Below are positions 2,719 to 64,000 of a stretch of 64,000 bases of DNA, piece after piece. A program made the translations under genes and the position numbers. The notes under the pieces are model-generated. The model saw nothing but the letters and a program-made list of their open reading frames with translations, ran no database searches and was not told the origin of the DNA. Source of the stretch: Citrus sinensis (lineage: Eukaryota; Streptophyta; Magnoliopsida; Sapindales; Rutaceae); the NCBI RefSeq assembly GCF_022201045.2, contig NC_068563.1, forward strand, positions 2,852,001 to 2,916,000, in the 5' to 3' direction. The stretch's first letter is position 1, and each line of letters starts with the position of its first letter.

Positions 2719-5700
2719 TCAGTGAGCCCGCCTCAGCCTCAATCCTACGTCAGCTTCTCGGTCGGATTGTATTAAACTAGTGCCGTGCGAACCTGAATTT
2801 TGCATTTCAGAGGAAGTCCCTTCATCGTTTTGCTTCTCTAGTAGATCTTCCCCAAAATTATGGAGTCTGCGGCCGATAAGATATCGGTCATCGCGTATGG
2901 AGTTGTGAAGGTTAGTGAACCAGACATGGAATCTTTTTGCGCAAAACCACAATACGCTGAAGCAGAGACATCCCAACCATGCAAACCGATAGACTGCTGA
3001 ATTTACAACTAGTGGGTAACCAAGCACGGGGAATACACCTCGGGCTAGGACATAAGGTACGCATAAAGCTGTTAGTAGCTTCATTATGATCGGGAACACA
3101 ATTTCACGGAGAACCCACAGACCTTGCAGCCTTGAGAAACCATCTTCTCTCACCCTTTCGAATTTTATTCGCCAGCTTTCATCTACAAGCGGCATCATAT
3201 GATCCAACATAACCTGTTAAAATAACATTGGGAAGAATCCACAATCCCTTGTTTAGAAGACATATTAAAATGTATCACAAAAGTGTGATGGAAACAAAAA
3301 GCAATAAAAGACTCACCAGCCTAGTCCAGATCTTCAGAAAGATGAGACCCAAAGCCCAATCCTGGTAAAGGAGAAAAACTGGGCTCTCATCCACGGGCAC
3401 TCGCATTGGTACAATTACCAAGAGTTCAAACAGAAGCCCAATTAACACCGGAATGACAAAAATCTGGAACATAACAGCGGCAAACGGATTGAAGAGTTAC
3501 AACTCCAATCATTAAAAAAAAAAAAATCAATTAATAAAATCTTTTAAAAGAATAATGACCAGAATAACCCTTACCCATATTGACAATAATGCAGAGCTCT
3601 TCACGACAATACCACACCACTTCCATATTTGCTTAAACAGAATCGCTGCCCTCTTTGTTCTAACATGTTCAATGGAATATCTGGCTCCAGCCACAGCAGT
3701 CCAAATAACATAGCTTCCAATGATGAAAGCATATAGATCTAATGGAAAGACAAGAAAATATGTTAGCATTTTCATCAAAAAGCATGAAGCATGGGAACTA
3801 TAAGTAACCCAATCGACAATGTTACCATTGCATTTGACGCCATGAGTAATTGGAAGCAGGGGAATGGCATTGAAGAGTGCACGCCCAAGTGAAATTGGTA
3901 CAACTATTAAGGCGGAATTAATAACAAGCAGAGTCATCCAGGCAATCACCAACAAGAGCACGATGCGAAGAACAAAGCCGTACCTGCTATAATACAATAA
4001 ACAATAGAGGGTAAGCAGAAGTGTCAGAAACCAATCAATACAGTTATGACAAGAATATTGAAAATACAAAGAATAAAAAAAGAAGTCTGGGACTAGATTA
4101 TGGCAGATCAAGGCGACAGGCATGGTCCTACAATGACAAGTGAAACTTTTCAATTATCAAAATAAGAACACAACTAATTTTAGGAAATTATTTTCACTTA
4201 TAAATGCCTTTCAAGGGTGCACTCGACAAAACTCCAATGCCAGGAAGAAATTCAGTCGAATGTTGCTCACTGTAACATATACCCACTCGTAATGTGAAAA
4301 AACAAAGTTCCTGAAACTTACTCTGAGTCAGATTGCTCATCACCATCATACTCTTCTGAAACATTAGAGTTTCCCGATACAAGAGCGCCTCTATTTATAT
4401 CATCAACAGCTGGCATTCCAATCAGGGCTCGATCAGGTCCTAATGGTATTACCTGTAGTCCATCACGTCTAATCTCAATATTTCTATCACGCCTTATGTC
4501 AATATTTCCATTCTCCTGGCCACCATTGTCCTCAGGTCTGGGCAACAAAAAGTCCGTTAGACCAAGTGCCCAGCCAACAGCTGTAAACCAATAGCGAAGA
4601 AGAGACTTGATTGTTGTGCGCAACTTAAAATGCTCAATGGCAAACGGAATGCAGATTTGAAAGAGAAGCATGTCAGCTGGTATTTCAGTAAACGGGTCGG
4701 ATACACTGCATAAACAGTTATGCATTCAGCATATAAAAGATGATATATCAACAAGGAAAGAAACTGCAGCAAAAGATGCCACTGTAAAGTGTCTGCTTAC
4801 GATATGTCAAGAGGAAAAATAGAAGTAGCCAAGCGCATAGCAAGTTTGACTGGCAAAAATACCAGCATCACAATCAAACTCCCATAAACTGCAACAGACA
4901 GCAGAACTCTGCGAGCATGCTTGTGTACAGGATCATCAATTAGATCACGGAATGGATTATAGTTTGGATCAGCAGGATCCCGTAGGAAGTACAGAACTCC
5001 ATTACGCAGAACCTGTCAATGCAAGTGAAGAAAGGTCGTAAGAATAACACACTCAGACAACAAATCCAGAACTAAAAATGAGATGGCAAGGAGTAGTACC
5101 CCTCGAAGAAGGCTGACGAATATGCTTATCTGTAACATGTAAACAATTCCTACAACCCAATGAACCAATGAACTTGCCAAAGGAGAGACTGAGAAGAACT
5201 GAACTCTTTCAGACATTGACTTCCCAAACATCCTTATGGTGCAAACATCCAACCACCAACCACACATCAAAGGGAAAACCCCAAGTTCAATGACCAAAAG
5301 GAAAGCTACCTTAATCATGGTCATTAAATGTCTCATTGCAGCCAAGAACTGCCTAAAGAGAGATGGAATTGTCTCCGCTATAGAAGCAATACCATAAAAC
5401 CTCCCCATAGTCAAAGGCTCGCCCTTGGTATACCGAATCAAAGCAACAATGCCAAGGTAGAAGAAGACTAGAGAGAATATAAACATGTATCCAATAGCAA
5501 GAGTTGTAACATCAGAAAGCCGTGATGTTCCCACCGTTGCCTCTTTCAACAGATCTGCTGAAAGTGAGGCACTTGTACTATTTGCTGCTTCAGTTATTTC
5601 ACTGGCATTTCCTTTTAACACATCTGCAACTTGGCCAAGAAGACCACCTTCTTGCCCTTCGGATGTTAAATTTGTCACAGCACTTAGTGCATTCTTCAAT

Positions 5701-23200: not shown

Positions 23201-26200
23201 TTAATATTATTAATTTAAATATAATATTTATTTATTTATTTTTATTTTATTAAATTTAATAAAATAAATATGATATAATTATTATTTTTAATAAATATGA
23301 TATTATTTATTTTATTAAATATTATTTATTTATTTTATTAAATATTATTTAAAATGGGAAGAGGAGGGAGTGGATTCCCACTCCCACCTCCCCCCATGGG
23401 AGTGGGAATCCCACTCCCCACTCCAAAATTAGGTGGGACCCACGGATTCCCACTCCCACTCCCTCCTTTTTTATGTTGTGTTTACTTGCTGGAGTGGGAG
23501 TGAGGAGTGTGGATTCCTCCCACTCCAGTGTTTACTTACTTAAAATGGGGAGGGATTGGGAATCCCACTCCGTGGATCCCACCCATTTTTGGAGTGGAGA
23601 GTGGGAATACACTCCCACCTCTCTCATTTCTACCCTTTTTATTTTATTTTATGTTTTATAATTAATAAAATAAAATAAATAATATTATATTTATTTAAAT
23701 AATAATATTATATTTAACTAAATAATAATTTACATTGATTCTAAGTTAAAATTATTTTAAAATAATATTATTACATTAATAGAGAATTAATAAATATAAT
23801 ATTATTATATTTATTTTAAAAATAATAGTACTATATTTATTTAATAATAATAATAAATACTTTATTCTAAGAAAATATTAATTTTGTACTAAATAATATT
23901 ATATTATTATTTTATATAATAATAAATTTAATATAATTATATTAAATAAAATAAAATAACATTTCATTTTATATTAAAATTACAATTAATAATTTATTGT
24001 TCATAATTAAGAATATTAATAATTATAATAAATTTACAAATATAATAAAACAAATATTATTCATTAAATATATTTTTTATTAGTTTTGTAATTAAAAATT
24101 ATAATTCTTTAAATAAGGATAAAATTGTAATTTGAAACTATTTACTCCCAATCCAAGACAAAGTAAACACATAAATTGGATTCTGATCTCCATTCCATGC
24201 TTCCATTCCAGTGTAAGTAAACAACCTACTCCCACTTCCACTCCACACTCCCAATCCTAGGATTCCCACTCCCCAGGATTCCCAATCCAATCCAAAAAGT
24301 AAACGCTACCTTCTGGTAAGTAAACACGGTAGTGGGAGGAATCTACACTCCACACTCCCACTCCAGAAAGTAAACACTACCTAAGTGATTAGACTATAAG
24401 GTATGGAATAAATTCTTGTTATTGTTGTTATGTTAAATATTTGTTATAATAGTTTATTTATTAAATTATTTCTTCATTCATAAGGGTAACATAATCTACT
24501 ACACTATGTTATAAAGTCAGGACGGCTATTGGCAGAGCGTAAGAAGTGAAACAAAATGGAGAACGCTAACTAATATAGTGTCCTTGTTTTCTACCATACT
24601 AGTTTTCTGCATTTTCCTTTTCACAAAACGAAAAACAACAGAGTGAAAATAATACCAAATGCACTCTTAGAGTTTTTGTAGAGTATTTTAAGTGCTTTTA
24701 TATATACACACATATATATGTAAAAGAAAAAAGTTTTAAAAATATTGCCAAACAACAACTCAAATACTTCCATTTAAAAGTTGACAGAATTAATGAAATG
24801 GACCACAAAAATAAAAACTGAATCTTCCATTATTTCTTTATTCACAAGGCTAACGTAATCTATAGTCAAGATGGTAGGGCTATTAGCAGAGAGCAAGAAG
24901 TGAAACAAAAAGGAGAATGCTAATATAGCGTTCATGTTTTCTACCATACTAGTTTTCTGCATTTTCCTTTTCACAAAACGAAAAACAATAAAGTAAAAAT
25001 AATACCAAACGAACTCTTAACCTTTTTTTTTTTAAAAAAAAGCATTTTAAGTGCTTTTATAAATAAATATACATAAATATAGAGTACTTTCTTAATCCAA
25101 AATTTTAAAATACAGAAAAAATCAAAAAAATAAATAAAACCACAAAATTTTAAAGACTTAAAATTTATATATATTTTCAAAACGTTCCCCACTTTAAAAT
25201 TCTAGAAGATTTTTTAAAATATTACCAAACAATAACTCAAATACATCCATTGAAAAGTCGCCGGAATTAATGAAGTGGACCACAAAAATGAAAACTGACT
25301 GTTCCAGTATTGTTCTACTGACTTTCTGCTCCTCCTGTTGACTTGGTGCACAAACTCAGCCACGTGTCCTAAGGTGAACGGCCATATTTATTTGCACCAT
25401 TTCTTAAAATCTTGACTAGTACACGGTCCAAGTGTCCAACTACACTCACGTGATCGCGTGCAGTTTGTCGAATGCGATATCATCAAAACTAATAATATTT
25501 TATGTATATTATATCACTAACACTTTAATAAATAAATAAAAAAAGACGTTGTAGTTTTACGTCGTCAGGGAGATTTGAACTCGCAACCTTCAGAATAGGC
25601 CAACTGCTAATCATCAACATTCGACTCAATCTACTTAATTTTTTATTTTACAAAAAGTGAATAGAGTACGGACATTTATCGTCGGTGAGAGTTATTTATT
25701 TAGATATATATTTTATAAATTTTAATTATATATGTTTAATTATAAATATCAGTATAATATTTATTATAATAATAATTATAAACATCTATATAATATAATA
25801 ATTTTATGCGTGATCAGTATTTAAAAAAACTCAATCTACTGGACTAAGAATCATAAATAAATGAATATTAGTAATAATAATAGAATTTAATTTTTCTTAA
25901 AGGAGTAATATTATTATTTACTTGCTTACCGCGCCAGCAATAGCCTTTTTGACCGCCTTCATGTCATCAATCGAGAAAGTAGCCGTCGCCAGCTTCCTCG
26001 GCCAGAGCTCGACCCCAGCGCCGCCGCTAATCGCCGTCTTCCGATCAGAAACCCACAGAGCCCTTAACAAAAACTCGAAAACGAATACGATACTAAGCAA
26101 AACCATCTTCAACAAACCCCACAAGCTCCCGATCCTCCCCGCACTCTCCGTCCTCTTCCCGCCGGCCACCGCCGGCAGAGCCTCCGGGTCGTCCGCCAGG

Positions 26201-26628
26201 CGGCAACTCGCGAGCAGCATCGACACCAGCGAAATCCCATCGCCCAAGGCATGGTGAATCCTGAACACGGCGCACCTGTGCTCTGCCAGCACGTGAACCT
26301 CCCACAGGGGCTTGTCTTCGCTGAGGGGAGAGCTGAACGACAGGCCGGCCACGTAGTCGTTGACCGAGGTGGAGTCGTGGACTTCGACGAAGTGTCGGTC
26401 GATGTCGATGCCGGTTTCGCGCCAGTGCTCGAGGCCGCGCTTGTCTCTGACCAGGACGCTCCGGAAGCGCGGGTGCCGGACCATGATGGAGCTCATGACG
26501 GCGTCCTTCGATTTGGGCACGTCAATGGGGCGTTCGAACCCGACGACGCAGTGGATTATCGTGTTCATGTGCGGCTGGAGGAAGAGGCGGCCGGCGGGGG
26601 TCAGTGGCTCGTCGGGGTGGGACCCCAT
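20250..26628 (-). CDS. WSD-type O-acyltransferase (wax ester synthase/diacylglycerol acyltransferase)
   Basis: Six exons: 26628-25930, 21836-21764, 21648-21581, 21477-21265, 21160-21023, 20417-20250 (1,359 nt, 452 aa, all phases consistent). The acyltransferase active-site motif HHALGDG is at residues 125-131, preceded by PLWE at 107-110. A hydrophobic segment at about 171-192 probably anchors it in the ER membrane. Exon 2 carries TINDVLFGVVSSGLSRYL, and the C-terminal half (MSWFGAK, NIVGPTEKI, MHMMSYAGRADMQILVAKD) is the WS_DGAT C domain. WSD enzymes join fatty acyl-CoA to alcohols to make wax esters for cuticle. Length is slightly below the usual 480 or so. Exon 1 is GC-rich, unlike the DNA around it. 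Intron 1 is 4,093 bp and full of repeats. Family certain; member and substrate not. Confidence 0.92.
22722..24381. mobile_element. Long fold-back (inverted-repeat) element in WSD intron 1
   Basis: The left arm begins GCGTTTACTTTTTGGATTGG (about 22,725). Its reverse complement ends near 24,305, and several hundred bases inward also pair, including the motif TCTTGGATTGGGAGTAAA and the A/T-rich interior. The centre (23,355-23,620) is a dense set of GGAGTGGGA/TCCCACTCC palindromes. A second end, GTGTTTACTT-CTGGAGTGGGAG, occurs at about 23,477 and, inverted, at 24,340-24,378. This suggests two related elements joined or nested head to head. No transposase is visible. Target duplications were not resolved. 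Confidence 0.75.
24463..25320 (+). repeat. Diverged tandem duplication of about 370 bp in WSD intron 1
   Basis: The segment from about 24,463 recurs from about 24,829. Shared stretches include GAAGTGAAACAAAA, TTTTCTACCATACTAGTTTT and the following CTGCATTTTCCTTTTCAC. The trailing part (AACAACTCAAATAC ... GAAATGGACCACAAAAAT at about 24,750-24,810) returns at about 25,228-25,290, with an extra A/T-rich piece inside the second unit. Confidence 0.75.
25558..25640 (-). repeat. tRNA-like (SINE-related) fragment in WSD intron 1
   Basis: On the minus strand a B-box-like GCGAGTTCAAATCTCC lies downstream of TTAGCAGTTGGCC, which resembles an A box with one mismatch. This is the layout of an old tRNA-derived SINE. 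Ends are not defined. Confidence 0.35.
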
Positions 26629-27805
26629 TTGTAGCTGTGTATGTTCCTTATTGAAGATGTCGTACAGAGAATTTTATGACGCCGGTTCCATCCAACTAAC
26701 TGGCTTTAACCTTTGCCTTTATTTCACGTCCGCTTAGTTTTGTCGGTTTTTTTTTTTTAATAGGTCAAAGTCCACTTTCCGGAGGGTCTTTGTCTGAGGA
26801 AGAATGTGGATTTTTTTTTAATTGAATCGCAATAACTAACTATAATTATAATTTTAAATAATGATTGATTAACTAGCTGATTTAACTCATACTTTCAATT
26901 TTTTTTTTTTTAACCACGAAGTATTTTGGAGAGGGCTCCAACTGTGGGAGGCACCTTTAAACTTGTACCACAACCCAGATTAAAAGTATCTCCTCGAACC
27001 GAGAGGCACAAGTTCTCCCAACAAAAATGACTTTCCTCTGATTCAAACTGGGGAGTAAACTCAGTCAAGCCACTTAAGGGGACTCCATTACCAGTGGAGA
27101 CAACACTTTGTTAGTAGCTCATACTCTCAATTTTAAGCATGCACAAGTTCATCCTCATGAATTTTCAATTATACTTGCATGCTTTTACAAGGTTCGATGA
27201 TATCTTCAATATTAAATATTTTTTAATATGAAAAATGTGTGAGTACGTAGTGGTAAATTTGAGACGGTTGGTATTGTTGATAAAAAGAAATGGTCATAAA
27301 TGTCAATATCTAAACCGTGAAGAATATAATACTTTTTCAAAGTATTAAAAAAGAATGAACTTTAAAATTATTATTATATGAACATAGAGTCATAGTTAGG
27401 GGGGGGGGGGACTTTTCTTCCTTTTTGATTTAATTTTTTTTATCATCAAAACAAAACATACGTTCCATTAATTTGTCTTATTTTGATGATCAAAGAATTT
27501 GTTTTGTTACTTTTTTTTTTCTTGAATCATGAGGTGGTCCTAATTGGACTCCAACTGAGAGATGTATCTTTAAATTCATATCACAACTTAGATTAATTCC
27601 TGCTTATACCGGATCGACCCGTAAAGAATAAAATATTATCCAAAGTGGTGATAATTGATTGATGGTCTAGGCAACAAGTATTACAAACTTTGTTTAGATA
27701 ATTAATAAATAGTTGGGAATATTAATTATGCCACTTGGGTTTAGCTGTTGAGGACCGATGCTTTCCTTTCAAACTTCTATTGATAAGGGGATTAAAATAA
27801 TGATT

Positions 27806-53240: not shown

Positions 53241-56200
53241 ATGCAAGGTCAAGGGAGTACCATTGATTCTTTCCCTGAATCTGTTAATATTGATCAGGAT
53301 TCTGTTTCCAGTAACACCAGTATGAGTCAGCAGATTTCTGTGGATAGTATTCTTCAGCCTGTCGAAAGCCGCTTGTCTAATTACACGGTAGCTTCTGGTG
53401 GCGCAACATGTGTAAATGCTGTTACTCATGATGTTCGGAACTTAAGTACCTGGAATTCGGGTGAACCTAGCTGTAGATTGAGTTTGCAGAATCAGAAGAA
53501 TGATGATGAAATGAAAATGGAACATGGTTGGTCTGCTTCTTGTAGTGCTCGTACTGGGGGTGGGCCTGTGTCAGAAGAAAGGCAGCGTGAATCAACTAGT
53601 ATCCTTTTTCCTGGTAGGCATGGTATTGGCCACAGTGGCAATCAGGACAGAAGTGGGCCTTCGTTTTCGCTAGGTTCAAGCTCCAGTCATTCCCCGCAAA
53701 ATTTGGATCTTGATGCAGGATATGTGGATAACAGTGGTTTTGGTGGACAGAGTATGGAAGTAGGATTAGGCCCAAATCTCCGCAACTCTGGTGGACTAGA
53801 AACAGAGCAGGCATATCTTGCCAGTGCTTCTTCTGATAAAGTTGGGACTTCATCTGGAAGCTCTGGTTTTATGTTGGAAGAAAACAATGGCGAAGCAGGT
53901 TCGCCTCTGGGTGGTTGGGGTTTATCCTGCAAGAGGAAAGCCCTTGAAGGCACGTCTGCACCGTCTTGTTCAGCAGGAAGTTCAAGTCGCTTTCCACAAG
54001 CTGAAAGTGGTGTCTCCGCTCGTTATGAGGCGTCTAGTAGCTTAAGTTTGTCTCCACCTTTGCAAAATTACCCTAGTGTATGTCCTCCTGAGCAGTCAAA
54101 TCCTAGGTTTGGGGTTGCTATGAGAATAGTAGAAGATGGTTTTCCTTCAGGTATCAGTGGAAATACAGAAAACCGCCTGAGAAGTTTTGGTAGGAGAGGG
54201 GACCCCCGACATCAGCAGGAATCTGTGCCATACAATTTATCATCAATAGGGGGTAGCGGGCACTCAAATATTGCTCCCCCTCATCCACCACCAATATCTC
54301 TTCCCTTTAGTGATGCTCTGGAATTGAGGGCGGCAGCAGCAGTTGCTGCAAATACAAATGCATCCCAGAACCAGGCTCACTCTGCACCTGTTTCTTCCTT
54401 TTCAAGAAACGCGCATCCTTTCCGTTGGGATGGTGCTTCCAGTTCAAGAGCTGGCAATTTATCAAGTTCATTTATCTCTGGAGAGAGAGGTGCTACACTG
54501 CGAGAGGAAAGAAACACAAGAAGCATACAAAGAAATAATGCTGAGCATCCAATGCTTGTTCCTTCAGCTGAGATGAGAAACATGGTGCAGGATCCAACTA
54601 GTTGGAGTTTGGCCACTGGAAGTTCTTCTGGAGGCGTTTCCTCAACTGCTCGAATTGGATCAAGTTCAAGTACCCATCCTTCACCAGCTTCTGCCTGGGT
54701 TCCTCACCACAACATCTCAATACATAGTCAGCAAAGATTATTAGAATATTCTCCTTGGTCTTTATTTCCATCTGTCAATTCTGATTCTGGAGTTCGTACT
54801 GGTCATTTTCCTCCTTTGTCTTCAGGTCCTTCCTCATCCTCACAGGAACCAGTCATGCCATCTAGTTCTAATAGCCAGGTCCATCACCAAACACAACGAA
54901 GGTCATCATTTCTGATGGAGAGACAAGGTGACAATGTTCTTGGTTTGCCCCGTTCTTTGCAGGTTTTAGCTGCTGACATTGAAGGGAGACACCGGTTGAT
55001 ATCTGAGGTTGGTGTTATTTATTTTCTCTTCTTCAAATTTATTGTCTGTATATATACTGTGTTAAGGCTTTGGGACTGGATAGGAAATATTTTCTCTATT
55101 GTGGTTTGGCTGTAACAATTTCTTTGAATAGTCATAGGTTCCATAAAGATAGATATTTGTGTAGACCTTCAGATAGCTCTCATATGTGTTATGAAATTGC
55201 ATGCAGGAAGAAATAATAGTATTGAACTTATTGATAACTCAAATAGCTTTTCCATTTAAGTTTCATACAGATGCAACTTGGATATAAACTATTTAATGCA
55301 ATCTTGGGTTCTGCATTTATGGTCTTATGCACATCAGATTTCTGAATCCTCTTTTACTTTGATCTTCTTTTATTTCAGTCTGTGTTGACTTGATTTTTAT
55401 GTTCATTTTTTGTTTGGCTGTGTGTTTAGATTCATTTTTGGTATTGTCAGAAGCATCGTAACTACATATCAGTGAAATATTGCATTGATTGGAAGCATAG
55501 GTTGCAATAAGTAGATATAAATTCCAAAATAAGTAGATATAAATTCTGAAAACAGAATACTTATTTTCTTTCTCAATTGCTGATATTTTTTTTTGGGGGT
55601 TATTGTGCGATTTTGATTAGATCAATGAATTTTGCATTGATTGCATTGGGCTATTGTGGAAGTGTCCACTGTTTTCTTGTCTATTATTAACATGGTATAT
55701 TTAGACTATCAAGTTCCAATATCAAAATTACTTTTTGGATTATGCTGATTATTATAATGATTGTTAGTTAGTAACTTTAGCACGGTATCATAAGGACTAA
55801 ATGTTAATCTTCTTTTCTGTGGCCCAGATTCGTCAAGTCTTGAATGCCATGCGTCGGGGGGAGAACTTACGAGTTGAGGTTTGCATTTGAATTAACATTC
55901 TTGTCGTCATTTTATGCTCTTCCTCCAACTCATTATTTTTGTGAAATGATGGCTTCTATCTTGCTAAAATTTAGTTGAGAATCATGTTTCTTCCATAATG
56001 ACATATGGTTATGAAAGGTCAAAGCGATGTCTTGTGCAAGAACTCACCATCGATGATGATCAAAGATCAAATGGCAGTGAAACTGATTTTTGTGGAAATT
56101 TAATTAAAGTTTAGTAGCTTCAGACAATTAAATCTATATTTCTAATAGAAAATAAAAAGGAAAAGGTGATTAATTTGTCTTACCCTGTAAGGAAAACAAT

Positions 56201-57619
56201 AGAGGTGATGACAATCCCTAGTGCTGAATATTTAAGTCCTTTCATCTCACATGATCATATTTGGGGCATGATCCAGGAATCTAGTTTTTTGTTATTATAA
56301 AGTGGACGTTATTCAGCTTATCGCTGAGACTTGAATAATATGTCAAAAAAGTATTTCTCCGTGCCGTAAACATAACTTGCATGAATTTTGAGTGGACACA
56401 CGAATGTGTCTGTGTAGCGAAAACATGTGACCTGCTCTTGGTGGATGTATGTCATTCTCTTCCTCGACCTTCTACCGAGCATGATTTATACTTTCCTCTT
56501 AAGTGGGGTTTTTGTTAGATGAAGGCCAAAGAGTTCTTTTAGTAATGCAGTATCTACAGTATTCTTATTTATGAAATGAGTTTATGGATAACTTCGATGA
56601 CTTGGAGATGAATGTCAAACCGGGGTCTCATCAATTTATGGTGCTGTGTATTTGTCCTACCTTCAAAGGCCAACAGCTGGCTGCTTCAATTGTTGAACAT
56701 GCTAAAAGCTAGGTGACGTGTCCTATTTTCGTGCCTGGAACATGTAGATAAATTAATTTTCTGAATTTTTTTTGGAAGGATCCTTAAGGTTAAATTAAAA
56801 AAAAAATTGTAATTTAGCATCTGGCACCCCTAGAAGAAAGGAAAAATTTACAGATCTGGCTTTTCTGCTTTTCTACCATCACATGATTTGACTAAGCTGC
56901 TAGCAGATACTCATTGCAAACTTGAGGGCATATGAGATGCTCTAAAGATCTTGGCTTTCACCATATTTTCTGCTTTTGTATAGCAAATGACTATTATTTA
57001 TCTTTCAGGATTATATGCTTTTTGAGCCGTTCATATATCATGGGCTGGCAGAAATGCATGACAGGCATAGAGACATGCGCCTGGATGTTGATAACATGTC
57101 TTATGAGGTAAGAGAGGAAGTTATGTCCTTGTTAGTTTTTTTTTTTTTTTTTAATCTCCCCCCGCCCAGGCGGTCGCTGTTAGTTATTTCTCATTGAAGG
57201 CTGTCGGCTTACATAAGACGTTGGAATGTTAGGAATTGTTGGCGCTTGAAGAACGCATAGGAGATGTGAGCACTGGACTGAATGAGGAAACCATTATGAA
57301 CATAATGAAACAGAAAAGGTACACATCCTTGGAAATAGAAATCCCATCTGACCAGGAGCCTTGCTGTATTTGCCAGGTACGTGTTAGAGAAAAGAAAAGC
57401 AAATATTTCTTCTACTTTAGATGATGTAAACTCACCTGACTAATTGGTACTAACTTTGTCTATCTTGCTCGTGCTTTCTTACGGCAGGAGGAATATACTG
57501 ATGGAGATAATCTTGGGATCTTGGACTGCGGACATGACTTCCATACGAACTGCATCAAACAGTGGCTAATGCAGAAAAACTTATGTCCCATTTGTAAGAC
57601 AACAGGGCTTCCCACATGA
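53241..57619 (+). CDS. MBR/RHG1A-type RING-H2 E3 ubiquitin ligase (first copy)
   Basis: Exons 53241-55007, 55828-55878, 57009-57107, 57233-57376, 57488-57619 give 2,193 nt and 730 aa, all in frame. The start ATG begins MQGQGSTIDSFPESV, as in plant RHG1A/MBR2 relatives; a frame-open ATG at 53,187 upstream is not needed. The first 590 residues are Ser/Gly/Asn-rich and probably disordered, with the conserved block WGLSCKRKALEGTS. The C terminus is a full RING-H2: C683, C686, C701, H703, H706, C709, C720, C723. MBR1/MBR2 in Arabidopsis ubiquitinate the Mediator subunit MED25/PFT1 and promote flowering; a similar nuclear role is inferred. A damaged tandem copy follows about 8 kb downstream. Confidence 0.92.
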
Positions 57620-60328
57620 GAGGGAAGATCATCATTCTTGGAGCGAGGAGTTCAAATTCATGCCTATTGAATATTAAATCAGATAGTCAGGTGGATGATA
57701 TCATATTTCTAACTCTTCTTGGGTCTGAAACCTTCCTTCTCCAAACCCCCCCTCCCCCCCCTCTTTCTCTCTTTATGTTTTTTCTTGTTCATGAACTGCA
57801 TTAGTTTATGAAGTGGAGCGGCCAAGCAGCCGATAAAGTGTCATGAAATTACAGCATGTGTGGGAAAAAGGGTATGCTTAAAGCATTATGACAGTTACAA
57901 ATTTGAAAATAATATTAATGACATTTTCAAGCTCCTAGAATGTTGAAGCATTTCAGTTAAAACTTCAATTTTTGCTATTTCTTTTGGCTTGTTTTTGTTA
58001 TCCCCTTTGTCCCGGCGGCAACAGGAGTGTTTTTGTCCAATTATATTTCGCAATGTGATATGTCAAGAATTGTATTGAGTCATTGTATTTTCAGTTTAGT
58101 TGTTGATTTGATAGGTCATTTGCTTAATTTATTCACCTATTCTCCGGTTACAAGTGAATTAAAAATGAAAGATTGTTAGGAATTTCAACCTTTTACCATC
58201 ATGTTTCTTATCTTGTAAGAATAGTCATGCATTCTTGTTCAAATTCAGTGAATTAAGTGAATTTGATTTTTTTTTTTTTTTACAAGTTATATTGGATTAA
58301 AACATCACAAAATTCGCGCATCATTTTTGTTATTTTATTGATCTTGTACGTCGAACAAAACGTGCATCTTCTTCTTTACACTCAAAATGGTTAATTGGGC
58401 CCAGCGGGCTAAGCACATCTCTGTTGTGGGCTGAACATCATAAAATGTCGGCCCCATTAATGTGAAAGACCAAGCGTGCTGCTAGTCAAAAACATCCTTG
58501 AATAAACACTACTCCGAACGGGTTGGTTTCGGAAATTGACTAGAATTGAAAGGGTAATGATTTTATACAAATTTATTTTATATAAATTGATGTAATATGA
58601 TAAAATTGATTAAATTAAATATCTCTTGGTTCATATGATTTATTTTTATTATTAACGACAATAATAATTAAAAAGTAAGAATAATAATAATAACAATAAA
58701 AATAATATAATAATATTTTATTTGAGAACAAAGAATGGAATGATAAAACTTATGTAGGATAAAATGAAGAGTTCAGGAAACAAAAACTTGATTCCCTATT
58801 CTTTTCATGGGAATTAAGTTTTTATTCTTTAATCTCATAAATATGTGGCCCAACATATTTTATTTTCATTCTTACTTCTATTTTAATAAATAAAAACTAT
58901 CGAGATTATTTTTATTCTAGATTCTGATTCCTTAATATAAGAAGTAAACGCACCACCAATTAATTTTAATTGCTCATTTACAATTTTTTGACGTTTTCTT
59001 TGAAAAATGAAAATGAAAAAACTAATTGTATTTTAAAAAAAATTTAAGTAATGTTTCATAAAATAATATCAAACAATTATTTTAAAATATTCTTCTTTTT
59101 TTAAACTTTAAAATTTAAATTATTGGGAAATAATAAAAAAAAATTTAGAAAGTTTACGTTATACCAAAAATTATTCCTATGTAAGAGATAGACTGTGACT
59201 GCGATTATGGTATACAGACAAAAAGTGAAAAATGAATTTTCTTTATGTATCAAAGTGAAAATATACGTAGTGTTTAAAGAAAGAGAACAATTACTTTCCT
59301 CATCTTATTACCTGTTTGAACCGATTATAATTATTAATTATGTTTATTGGTGTTTTTATAAATAAAATAATATTACTTAAATGGTAATTTTAAATCTAAA
59401 TGAAAATGAAAAATAAATTAACATTATTGACGAATAAACTCTCTCTCTTAATATTAAATTTCGTCAGTCTTCTCCCATGTCATCCATGGCTCAGGTGCTT
59501 GTCCGCTTCCCATTTCTATTATCACATGTTTCCTCTATTTCTCTGCTAAAAAGACAATGAAAAATAAAAAAGTAACTGAAAGAGAGAGAGAGAAGAGGCC
59601 AAGTCAAATTTTATTTTAACAAAATATCCCGCAAAAATCCAACCAAAAAAAAAAAAAATCAATGAAAACGCTTCTGGGTTTTTCTGATTCTTTCAACTAC
59701 TAGCTAGTGTTTGTGTTCATATCACTTACTCTAACCCCATTTCATTTCTTGGTTTCACCGATCATCTCTTTCTCTGTCAGGTAATTTTTCTTCTTCTTCT
59801 TTTTTTAATGTCTTCTATTGATTATTTTTATTTTTTTATATGATCATGTTACTGCATGGATTTTTTTTTAATTTTATTTTAGTTTTTGTGCCTTTTTGTG
59901 AGGAATCGAGTTGACCCAGGTTGCTTTTTCGAATTTCATCGGTTTTTCATTTTAAATTTCGTATTTTTATGTAATGTTTTGATTTCAACAACGTCTATAT
60001 CAATTTATTTGATACATAACTTATTGGAGTGTTTTTTTTTTTAAGTACATTTGGAGTGTTTTTTTTTTCCCAATAACATGGTGAATTTGTTCCTTTTCAT
60101 TTTGGGTACTTTGACTCTTTGGGCAATTTCTTTTTCTATGAGGTTTTAATCTCTCATTGTTTTGAGTTTGTTCTGTGGATGTCTGTGGATGTTTCAATGT
60201 GCAAAAGTTTCACGCTTGACAATGTAAGTGTTTAATTTAGCTCATATTGATGTTTATATTTTGGGGTTTCAGGTCAATTTAATGGACATTACAATATATT
60301 CTTGCTGCTAGGCATTTGTTATTGCAGG

Positions 60329-60359
<31 letters not shown>

Positions 60360-61207
60360 GATGTTTAGCTTATATACTTCTGTCTGTTGAAAATAATTTT
60401 TGGCATAATGAGCTTCGTACGGTTGCAATTTGATATTGGCATGTATATTGTTATAGTGGCAGCTTGCAAATTGTGTTGAAAAAAACAATCTAGACTTAAA
60501 TTGAAGTGGTGGTGGAGTCATAAAAATGTTGTGTTATGGAATTTGTTGGCGAGTTCATAGCTCAGTCATGTTAATATCTCATTTATATGCTGATCTTTAG
60601 TTTTAATGTAGCTAGATTTTGATCAAATTGTTTGAAATTTTATGCCAAGTGCACACAAAATGTTAGCCAAAATGGTCATAATAGTTGGTCTTTGATGTGA
60701 AGGATATTGAGGGTTTGTAAATGAAGGATATGAAGGATTTGTAATAGATCCCACTTTGAGTGAAGAATAGAATGCAAATTATATGCATAGAAAGTTATCT
60801 GTAGAAAGCTGGTCTTCCTGATGGTGCAGCCAAGATTATGTGAATAGTTATGAACTTTTGTGATAGAATTAGAAATGTTTGGAACAAATATTGCATGGAA
60901 TAAAATTTTGCATACTTTTATCCCATTTGAAGCTAGATATCATGGGAGTGTTGCAACCATGATGATGAGGGGAGACAGCATGTTGCAATTCTGAATTAGT
61001 TTTAATTTATTTTTTTTACTGTTTTAGTCCTTTTTATTATTTAATTATTTAGCAATTTGACATTGCTCACATATTTTCGGTTTTCCAGCTATCAAAGAGT
61101 CGATGATCATCCTTTCTTCTGTTGGTTGCACGAAAATTCCCCTGGCATTCATGTCTGAAATTTGGATCACTGTTTAACATTGTGTACACTTGTTCTGGTT
61201 GGCCCTC
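57620..61207. other. Spacer and 5' leader of the second RING gene
   Basis: 57,620 to about 58,100 is likely 3' untranslated region of the first copy. 58,500-58,960 is A/T-rich and ends AGAAGTAAACGCACCACC, similar to the fold-back ends in WSD intron 1. From about 59,460 the sequence parallels the leader of the first copy, including intron-like borders near 59,780, 60,270 and 61,089. No other gene recognised. Confidence 0.5.
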
Positions 61208-63651
61208 ATGCAAGGTCAAGGGATCACCAGTGATTCCTTCCCTGAATCTGTTAATATTGATCAGGGACTGTCCAATAATACTAATATGAATTAGCAGACT
61301 TCTTGGCATAGCTTGCTGCATCCTATGGAAAGCCGTATATCAGATTATGCAGTAGCTTCTGGTGGTGCAGCATGTGTAAATGCTGTTACCCATGATGTTC
61401 GGAGCTTGAGCGGCTGGAATACGGGTGAACCTAGCTCCAGATTGAGTTCACAGAATCAAATGAATGACGATGTTATGGAAATGGAACAAGGTTGGACTAC
61501 CTCCTATGGTGATCATACTGGGGTTGGTCCAAGGTTAGAAGAAAGGAAATTAGAACCAACTAGTGCCCTTTTTCCTGGAAGGCGTAATTTTGGCCACAGC
61601 GGGGATCGGGACAGAAGTGGGCCTTCTCTTTTGCTAGGCTCTAGCTCTAGTCATGCTCCACAAAGTTTGAATCTAAATGCAGGATATATAGGTAACAGTG
61701 GTAGTGTTGGCTCTTTATCTGGAAACTCTGGTTTTATGGTGGAGGAGAACAATGATGATGCAAGTTTGACTCTTGGTGGGTGGGGTTTATCCTGCAAGAG
61801 GAAGGCTCTTGAAGGTACGTCTGGGCAGTATTGTTCTGCAGGAAGTTCAAGTTGCTTTCAACAAGGTGAAAATCATGCATCTGCTTGTTATGACACATCT
61901 AGCAGCTTAAGTTTGTCTCCACCTTTGCAAAACTCCCTTGGATTTGGTATGAGAGCAGTAGAAGATTGTTTTCCTTCTTCGGGTAGCATTGGAAATACAG
62001 AGAACTGCCCGAGAAGTTTTGGTAGGATAGGGGTTCCCGGACATCAGCAGGAATCTGTACCATTCCATTTGTCATCAAGAGGGACTAGTGGGTACTTGAA
62101 TAATGCTGCCCCTCATTCGTCACAAATACCTCTTCCCTTTAGTAATTCTCTGGAATTGAGATCGACAGGTGCAAATACAAATGCAGCCCAGAACCTGCCT
62201 CAAGATGTGCATGTTTCTGCTTTTACAAGAAATGTGCATCGTTTCCCTTGGAGTGGTGCCTCCAGTCCAAGAGCTAACAATTTATCAAGTTCTTTTACAT
62301 CTGGAGAGAGAGATGCTGCATTGCAAGAGGAAGGAAACACAAGCAGCATCCCAAGAAACAATGCAGAGCAGCATCCCATGTTTGTTCGTTCAGTTGAGAT
62401 GAGAAACATGGCGCAAGATCCAACAAGTTGGGGTTTGGCCACTGGAAGCTCTTCTGGAGGCATTTATTTGACCGCTCAAGTCGGTTCCAATTCAAGCAGT
62501 CAACCATCACCCCCTCCTGCCATGAGTCCTCACCACAAATACTCAACTCATAGTCAGCAAAGATTATCAGAATTTTCTTGGCCTTTATTTCCATCTGCCC
62601 CTCAAAATCCGAATCTAAATGCAGGATATGCGGGCAACAATGGAAGTGGTGGACAGGGTATGGGCATAGGTTTAGGCCAAAATCCATGTAACTCAAGTGG
62701 ACTGGAAACAGAGCAGGAATCTCTTGCAAGTGCTGCTTCTGATAAAGTGGGGACATCATCTAGAAGCTCTGGTTTTATGGTGGAGGAAAACAATGGTAAC
62801 GCAGGTTCATCCCTGGGTGGTTGGGGTTTATCCTGCAAGAGGAAGGCCCTTGAAGGTACGTCTGCACAGTCTTGTTCAGCAGGAAGTTCAAGTTGTTTTC
62901 CACTAGCGGAAAATGGTGTCTCTGCTCGTAATGACCCGTCTAGCAGCTTAAGTCTGTCTCTGCCTTTGCGAGATTCCCCTACTGCTTGTCCTCTTGAGCA
63001 GTCAAATCCTAGATTTGGGGTTGGTATGAGAATAGTAGAAGACGGTTTTCCTCCTCCTGGGATCACTGGAAATTCTGAAAACTGCCTGAGAAGTTTTGGT
63101 AGGAGGGGGAATCCAAGACATCGGCAGGAATCTGTACCATTCAGTTTATTATCAAGGGGGAGTAGCAGGCAGCCAAATATTGCTTCCCCTCATTCGCCAG
63201 CAATACCTCTTCCCTATAGTGCTTCTTTGGGATTTAGATCGGCAGCAGCACAAGATGCAAATATAAATGCACCCCAGATCCAGCCTCATCCTGTGCACGT
63301 TTCTTCTTTTTCACGCAACATGCATCATTTTCCTTGGAGAGGTGCTTCCAGTTCAAGAGCTGGCAGTTTATCAATTTCTTCTACCTCTGGAGAGAGAGGT
63401 GCTACATTGCGAGAGGAAGGAAATGCAAGAAGCTTCCCAAGAAACAATGCAGAGCATCCTATGTATGTTTCTTCAGCTGGCATGAGAAACATGGTTCAAG
63501 ATCCAGCAAATTGGGGTTTGGTCACTAGAAGCTCCTCTGGGGATGTTTCTTCCGCTCGAATTGGATCCAGTTCTAGCATTCATCCTTTGCCTGGTTCTGC
63601 CTGGATTCCTCACCCAATCCCCTCAACACATAGTCACCGCCTGATGTCTGA
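61208..63651 (+). pseudogene. Second, rearranged copy of the RING-H2 gene (partial at window end)
   Basis: The ATG equivalent to the first copy is at 61,208 (MQGQGITSDSFPESV), but codon 29 is TAG (61,292-61,294), where the first copy has CAG. After the stop the frame stays open for about 785 codons from ATG 61,325 to the donor at 63,651, so a shorter N terminus could still be made. The block WGLSCKRKALEGTS and its surroundings occur twice (about 61,666-62,600 and 62,602-63,645). The segment corresponding to first-copy FPPLSSGPSSSSQEP ... VLAADIEGRH is missing before LMSE. RING exons would lie beyond 64,000. It may be a pseudogene or an active shortened paralogue; the sequence here cannot decide. 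Confidence 0.75.
61666..63645 (+). repeat. Internal duplication of about 1 kb in the coding exon of the second RING copy
   Basis: AATCTAAATGCAGGATAT at about 61,670 returns at about 62,612, and all later blocks (GGWGLSCKRKALEGTS, RSFGR, PRNNAEHPM, MRNM.QDP) appear in the same order in both halves. The halves differ by many substitutions and by two segments absent from the first half. The second half is closer to the first gene copy. Confidence 0.9.
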
Positions 63652-64000
63652 GGTTTGTGTTTTAGTTATTTTTTCTCTTTGTCAATTTATTGTTTCTATA
63701 CATTTGCTATTTTCCACTTTTGTTACTGGAGGTGGAATTTTCTTGATCATTGTGGCAGAGCTGTGTGTTTCTGGATTAATGTGCTTTGATTTCTTGCTTA
63801 CTATTACTCAGTATATATATATATGTTATTTTTATAGTTATTTTGGTGTTGTATATCTGATTTGAGTTTAACCTCATGTATAGAATGTAGTTCTCATGTC
63901 ACCATTGAGTAGTTGACCTTCCTGTCATCAATTTCCTTATTTTAGCGAACAATCTTTTTAGTTTATTTTGTGGGAGCTTAATGTGTATTAGGGTAAGTAT

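Follow-up and report, generated by a model that had tools for sequence, protein, structure and literature searches.

A long-maintained, reshaped tandem copy of a predicted citrus RING-H2 ligase gene carries one early stop, probably young

The window analyzed here, a stretch of 64,000 nucleotides of the Citrus sinensis genome (C8:2852001-2916000), contains a RING gene, copy 1, at 53241-57619 and, downstream on the same strand, the first part of a second. Comparison of the pair bears out the proposal of an earlier note that the second gene, copy 2, is a tandem copy. Both gene models were predicted by comparing the two copies with each other. To read the remainder of copy 2, which runs on past the window, we took from the genome 9.9 kb starting at window scale 63001 (L004). 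Genome searches covered the 299.7 Mb assembly in its 11 contigs. Table 1 collects the features of the locus. Elsewhere in the window, a 188-codon stop-free frame (26068-26634, plus strand) lies antisense to a 251-codon frame (25918-26673, minus strand), which by its motif we take to resemble an acyltransferase.

Table 1. Features of copy 1 and copy 2, in window positions except for the last row
Feature	Position	Strand	Remarks
Copy 1 exon 2, intact tandem paralog	53241..55007	+	from copy comparison
Copy 1 further exons	55828-55878, 57009-57107, 57233-57376, 57488-57619	+	from copy comparison
Presumed 5'-leader intron of copy 2	59781..61088	+	donor GTAATT, acceptor TTTTCCAG; colinear with copy 1; predicted from sequence
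24-codon upstream ORF, copy 2 exon 2 leader	61103..61177	+	matching part of copy 1 leader lacks it
Coding part of copy 2 exon 2	61208..63652	+	28 codons, the TAG, 786 stop-free codons; GT donor follows 63652
Premature TAG, codon 29 of copy 2	61292..61294	+	next codon CAG; aligned copy 1 codon is sense (Gln)
In-frame ATG, codon 40	61325..61327	+	30 nt past TAG; G at +4; Val in copy 1, Pro in C5 paralog
Internal unit A (first)	61658..62599 (about)	+	dN/dS ~0.9, relaxed
Internal unit B (second)	62600..63634 (about)	+	dN/dS ~0.42, constrained
Start of copy 2 intron 2	63653..64000	+	gene runs on past window
Copy 2 RING-side exons, window scale	65954-66004, 66675-66773, 66852-66995, 67106-67237	+	past window end
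Copy 2 RING-side exons, L004 scale	2954-3004, 3675-3773, 3852-3995, 4106-4237	+	from copy comparison

According to both the sequence and the list of open reading frames, ATG 61208 starts the frame in which, as the earlier note had observed, codon 29 is TAG. The frame is open from 61295 up to the exon border at 63652; the stop-free run that the note had described is thus real, at 786 codons rather than 785, its reported extent falling short by one codon and one base. From stop to stop the frame spans 61295-63865, or 856 amino acids. The 786-codon run lies far beyond chance, because resampling that sequence 500 times with a first-order Markov model gave no open run above 202 codons; these resamples held 36.4 stops per frame on average and 13 at minimum. 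Across the whole 957-codon frame of copy 2 (957 including the end stop), the TAG is the sole stop or frameshift.

Beyond exon 2, all inner exon borders of copy 2 are GT-AG, the normal end stop is in place, and the 2,871 coding bases contain zero frameshifts. The last four exons encode a complete RING-H2 domain, scoring 52.5 bits against PF13639 (cut-off 27.3), compared with 51.7 bits for that of copy 1; the translation contains the pattern CxxC...C-x-H-x2-H-x2-C...CxxC, which we take to be the C3H2C3 set of metal ligands. Copy 2 is accordingly described here as a predicted RING-H2 E3 ubiquitin ligase gene (Pfam zf-RING_2). For the earlier note, RING exons found disabled past 64,000 would have marked a plain pseudogene; those exons have now been read, and they are intact with GT-AG borders. 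The product of copy 1 is 730 amino acids long, with zero inner stops. No Pfam family matched copy 1 exon 2 or copy 2 codons 30 to 813 (E up to 1), and no NCBIfam model matched the RING part of copy 2. Intron 2 measures 2301 bases in copy 2 versus 820 in copy 1. It includes an insert at L004 ~2077-2265, seemingly bounded by caggggcgga...tccgcccctg, ends that the repeat search, with its 14-base minimum, did not report. About 190 bases past the stop codon of copy 2 lies an inverted repeat (L004 4425-4903, window scale ~67425-67903; 131-nt arms, 89% complementary, spacing 217 nt), a MITE-like insertion in or near the 3' UTR.

The genome search placed copy 2 at a single position, leaving no second haplotype for comparison. 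Copy 1 exon 2 matched one other locus, on C5 (7 of the 7 first-look candidates scored), and the RING part matched other RING genes of the genome 138 times (150 of the 189 candidates scored). Several RING matches on C3 come in pairs: 48106468/49457777, 48529638/49881296 and 48725122/50077591 are offset by ~1.35 Mb, and 49226339/50549706 and 49311091/50635234 by ~1.32 Mb, which suggests that the assembly contains either a large segmental duplication or a haplotype that was not collapsed. In a search of viral contigs for other alleles or relatives of the TAG site, one (L046) matched the 20 fixed bases; blastn of it against the locus was empty (E up to 0.01), and we attribute the match to chance.

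Copy 2 has been reshaped in two ways. The first, a point absent from the earlier note, is an internal duplication: codons ~152 to 513 of copy 1 are matched twice in copy 2, head to tail and in frame, and the resulting units A and B make up most of its open frame. It accounts for the greater length of copy 2. The dS between A and B is 0.38, and that of A and B versus copy 1 is 0.31 and 0.38. Divergence between the units thus resembles that of either from copy 1, so the internal duplication would date from roughly the same time as the tandem one, or else copy 2 would be a fusion of two formerly tandem copies.

The second change is a loss. A 71-codon linker just upstream of the RING exons is present in copy 1 and in the C5 paralog, where 29 of 69 aligned residues are common to the two and both end in ...ERQ-VLG-P-L-LAA-EGR; copy 2 lacks it, this ending included. 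A tblastn search of copy 2 intron 2 returned no match to the linker sequence. The claim that copy 2 keeps all blocks of its family does not hold in this respect.

We estimated pairwise maximum-likelihood dN/dS between copy 2 and copy 1 region by region. The ratio was 0.29 in the N region (149 codons; 2dlnL versus 1, 20.4), 0.60 in unit A (312 codons; 7.4), 0.42 in unit B (344 codons; 23.6) and 0.21 on the RING side (147 codons; 27.6). When copy 1, A and B were fitted on a star tree over 296 codons, their omega values were 0.36, 0.90 (0.895) and 0.42, respectively. The two units therefore evolve unequally, B being constrained and A near-neutral, its omega alone indistinguishable from 1 (2dlnL 0.16). 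With C5 as the reference, derived residues numbered 37 in unit A against 14 in copy 1, 23 against 19 for unit B, 7 against 5 on the RING side, and 3 in copy 2 against 5 in copy 1 for the N region from codon 40. Three-sequence branch fits with C5 as outgroup were poor, with copy 1 branch omegas of 11.9 and 1.98; silent sites are saturated in these fits, and the split between the copy 1 and copy 2 branches is for that reason unreliable. Subject to that saturation, they reject omega 1 for the RING side on the copy 2 branch (2dlnL 9.74), give only 3.53 for the N region on that branch, and have no power for codons 1-40 (2dlnL 0.16).

Two further lines of evidence concern reading frame rather than substitution rates. 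In 9 of 9 internal coding gaps (3 to 99 nt) the length is divisible by three, compared with 12 of 55 intron gaps; at the intron rate, nine in-frame gaps out of nine would have a probability of 1.1e-6. Neutral simulation over the copy 2 branch produced a mean of 21.0 stops and a minimum of 7 (2000 runs, none with one or fewer), which agrees with the earlier expectation that a dead gene should have collected more stops than the one present. Halving the branch lengths still gave a mean of 12.0 and a minimum of 2 (again none with one or fewer). These simulations are approximate, since copy 1 segments served as the ancestor proxy (1013 codons, ~6% above copy 2) and branch lengths were partly half the pairwise dS, but the margin is large. 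Unit A has 0 stops where 6.0 were simulated (P(0)=0.0005; 360 codons simulated, A having ~314). That a near-neutral unit is stop-free suggests that ribosomes had to cross A from an upstream start to reach B and the RING.

Together these results show that, through most of its history since the duplication, copy 2 was under selection for the protein it encodes. It has one stop, zero frameshifts and omega values of 0.21-0.42 outside unit A (A alone being close to 1, at 0.895). An old plain pseudogene is ruled out by the intact RING exons, the gap pattern, dN/dS and the stop count.

How old, then, is the stop? If the gene had lost all constraint with the stop, each unit of divergence (one substitution per site) would bring 115.7 further stops and, with indels at the rate of the introns, 101.3 of frameshift size. 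The probability of no second lesion then falls to 0.5 at 0.0032 and to 0.05 at 0.0138 substitutions per site, compared with a copy 2 branch length of ~0.15-0.3. A single lesion on so long a branch implies either that the stop is young or that the part behind it is still under selection; if that part has been unconstrained since, the stop is very probably younger than ~0.014 substitutions per site.

The codons ahead of ATG 61325 bear on this choice. Codons 1-39 share 26 of 38 comparable residues with copy 1, and the stretch from codon 40 to the internal units 76 of 111. Within the former, identity is 21 of 27 residues over the first 28 alignment columns and 5 of 10 over codons 30-39 (stop column excluded), too few to decide. 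Pairwise omega over codons 1-39 is 0.18 (2dlnL 8.6), a value from a short stretch that pools both lineages. This N-terminal likeness to copy 1, over a short stretch, would fit a young stop better than a start long in use at 61325. The earlier note had offered just these two accounts, a recent loss or translation from ATG 61325. Its interpretation is partly supported: copy 2 was maintained and its RING is intact, and N-terminal identity leans toward the recent stop without settling the choice.

Copy 2, then, is a tandem duplicate of a predicted RING-H2 E3 gene, reshaped but long maintained, with one early stop that is probably young. The account we prefer, and think rather likely to be correct, is that it represents an early stage of duplicate loss or truncation through a young nonsense mutation, and not an old pseudogene. 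Under this account, the gene duplicated in tandem would encode a plant RING-H2 E3 ubiquitin ligase whose long N part has no known domains and whose C terminus carries the RING. As the results show, copy 2 diverged from copy 1 yet retained its open frame, its GT-AG borders and an intact RING, and it has the in-frame internal duplication and has lost the linker in frame. The nonsense change at codon 29 would have arisen lately, and may be newly fixed or still segregating. With the TAG 84 nt into the frame and an in-frame ATG 30 nt farther on, output would be strongly reduced, a few ribosomes perhaps reaching ATG 61325 via leaky scanning or reinitiation. The predicted product would be an E3 without its first 39 residues that keeps units A and B and the RING. 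Several points go against this account: the ATGs ahead of 61325, listed below, may let little protein be made from it; the branch fits with C5 were poor; and the linker loss and the accelerated unit A would also fit a gene that was already drifting.

The main competitor, which we judge unlikely, holds that the shortened E3 is established and selected, translation from ATG 61325 being achieved by leaky scanning, reinitiation, or a downstream transcript start or splice. ATG 61325 is indeed, as the earlier note had it, the next in-frame Met after the TAG (codon 40). It is peculiar to copy 2, occurring in neither copy 1 nor the C5 paralog, and its +4 base is G; the frame from it and the RING are both intact; and the context of ATG 61208 is weak (c at -3, C at +4). 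Codons 30-39, which would then be untranslated, are also those that match copy 1 at merely 5 of 10 positions. However, the 21/27 identity and the omega of 0.18 farther upstream (short stretch, both lineages pooled) are unlike a long-untranslated stretch, and ATG 61286, with A at -3 and two residues ahead of the TAG, obstructs the path to 61325. Five ATGs lie upstream of it in all (61103, 61151, 61208 and 61286, plus 59662 in the presumed leader exon), and because these come first, little protein may reach the 61325 start. Any product begun there would lack the MQGQ... segment, conserved as judged from copy 1 and the C5 paralog, which codons 1-28 encode.

Less probable still is a plain recent null, in which the transcript is removed by nonsense-mediated decay or never made and zero protein results. 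Coding-exon junctions downstream of a stop are the usual trigger of decay, and four lie downstream of the TAG. An upstream ORF is present in the leader of copy 2 and missing from the matching part of copy 1, and the intact copy 1 could cover for the loss. Against complete decay, stops less than 150 nt from the start with a nearby in-frame AUG are described as often escaping it, with reinitiation a main reason; such escape yields an N-terminally truncated protein, the examples given being mostly from animals and yeast (PMC9661723). Our reading is that the present output of copy 2 would be a little shortened E3, or none.

The remaining explanations are weaker. In one, which we hold to be improbable, the TAG is functional: the upstream ORF of copy 2, its 28-codon ORF and a 917-codon ORF from 61325 would form a split-ORF control that sets a low dose of the reshaped E3, and copy 2 would have become a competitor of copy 1 or a variant of it under regulation. 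An error of assembly or base calling, or the capture of a minority haplotype by the assembly, is marginally less probable again: the whole case turns on one substitution, at a gene found in one place with no second haplotype, but no other sign of error lies nearby, frameshifts being absent from the entire coding sequence. Last and least credible are splicing that takes the TAG out and programmed readthrough. For splicing, TAGCAG sits behind tactaat, which we take to resemble a branch point, and 65 GT-AG pairs 60-450 nt apart would restore an open frame (a figure that has no control count), but these candidates are too numerous and weak, and from ATG 61208 the TAGCAG acceptors yield zero in-frame candidates. 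For readthrough, the CAG after the UAG fits CAR in the leaky motif of type I, UAG-CARYYA (PMC5382211), but the ACT that follows departs from YYA, and the site is not a type I leaky UAG.

To return to the preferred reading: if the stop is young, the locus presents an E3 gene that arose in tandem and, long afterwards, is losing its product or having it shortened; if a shortened protein is made, it would reveal which part of this type of ligase is dispensable. Either case belongs to a common kind of biology, a fairly ordinary phase that gene duplicates pass through. There is also a practical side, in that automatic annotation may miscall copy 2 as a pseudogene or omit its first residues.

The literature searches made returned no work on the copy 2 locus, and comparison is with related proteins and with a general class of genes. 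We take the architecture of copy 2, a long N part free of known domains followed by a C-terminal RING, to be of the MBR/HIP1 type, and its N-terminal start and layout to resemble those of Arabidopsis MBR1 and MBR2 (MED25-binding RING-H2; AT2G15530, AT4G34040). The C-terminal RING-H2 is shared; unlike MBR1 and MBR2, copy 2 has the codon-29 stop, the internal duplication and the lost linker. MBR1 and MBR2 are described as binding MED25, through its vWF-A domain, and promoting its turnover by degradation, an activity linked to FT activation and flowering (PMC5467580). Solved structures offer a narrower likeness. The query matched 39 PDB sequences, the best being ZNRF3, RLIM, RNF13 and Arkadia/ARK2C (E 4e-12 to ~1e-7), and for these the resemblance is limited to the RING and a short stretch ahead of it, the proteins being otherwise different; RLIM aligns with query residues 63-146, extending upstream of the RING.

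At the level of the gene, tandem duplicates that are "dying" and nonsense alleles of recent origin form a known general kind in plants. Copy 2 resembles them in having one early stop in an otherwise kept frame with kept splice borders. It differs in the age of the pair, which is old, with dS of ~0.3-0.6 by region; the loss, if real, therefore came long after the duplication.
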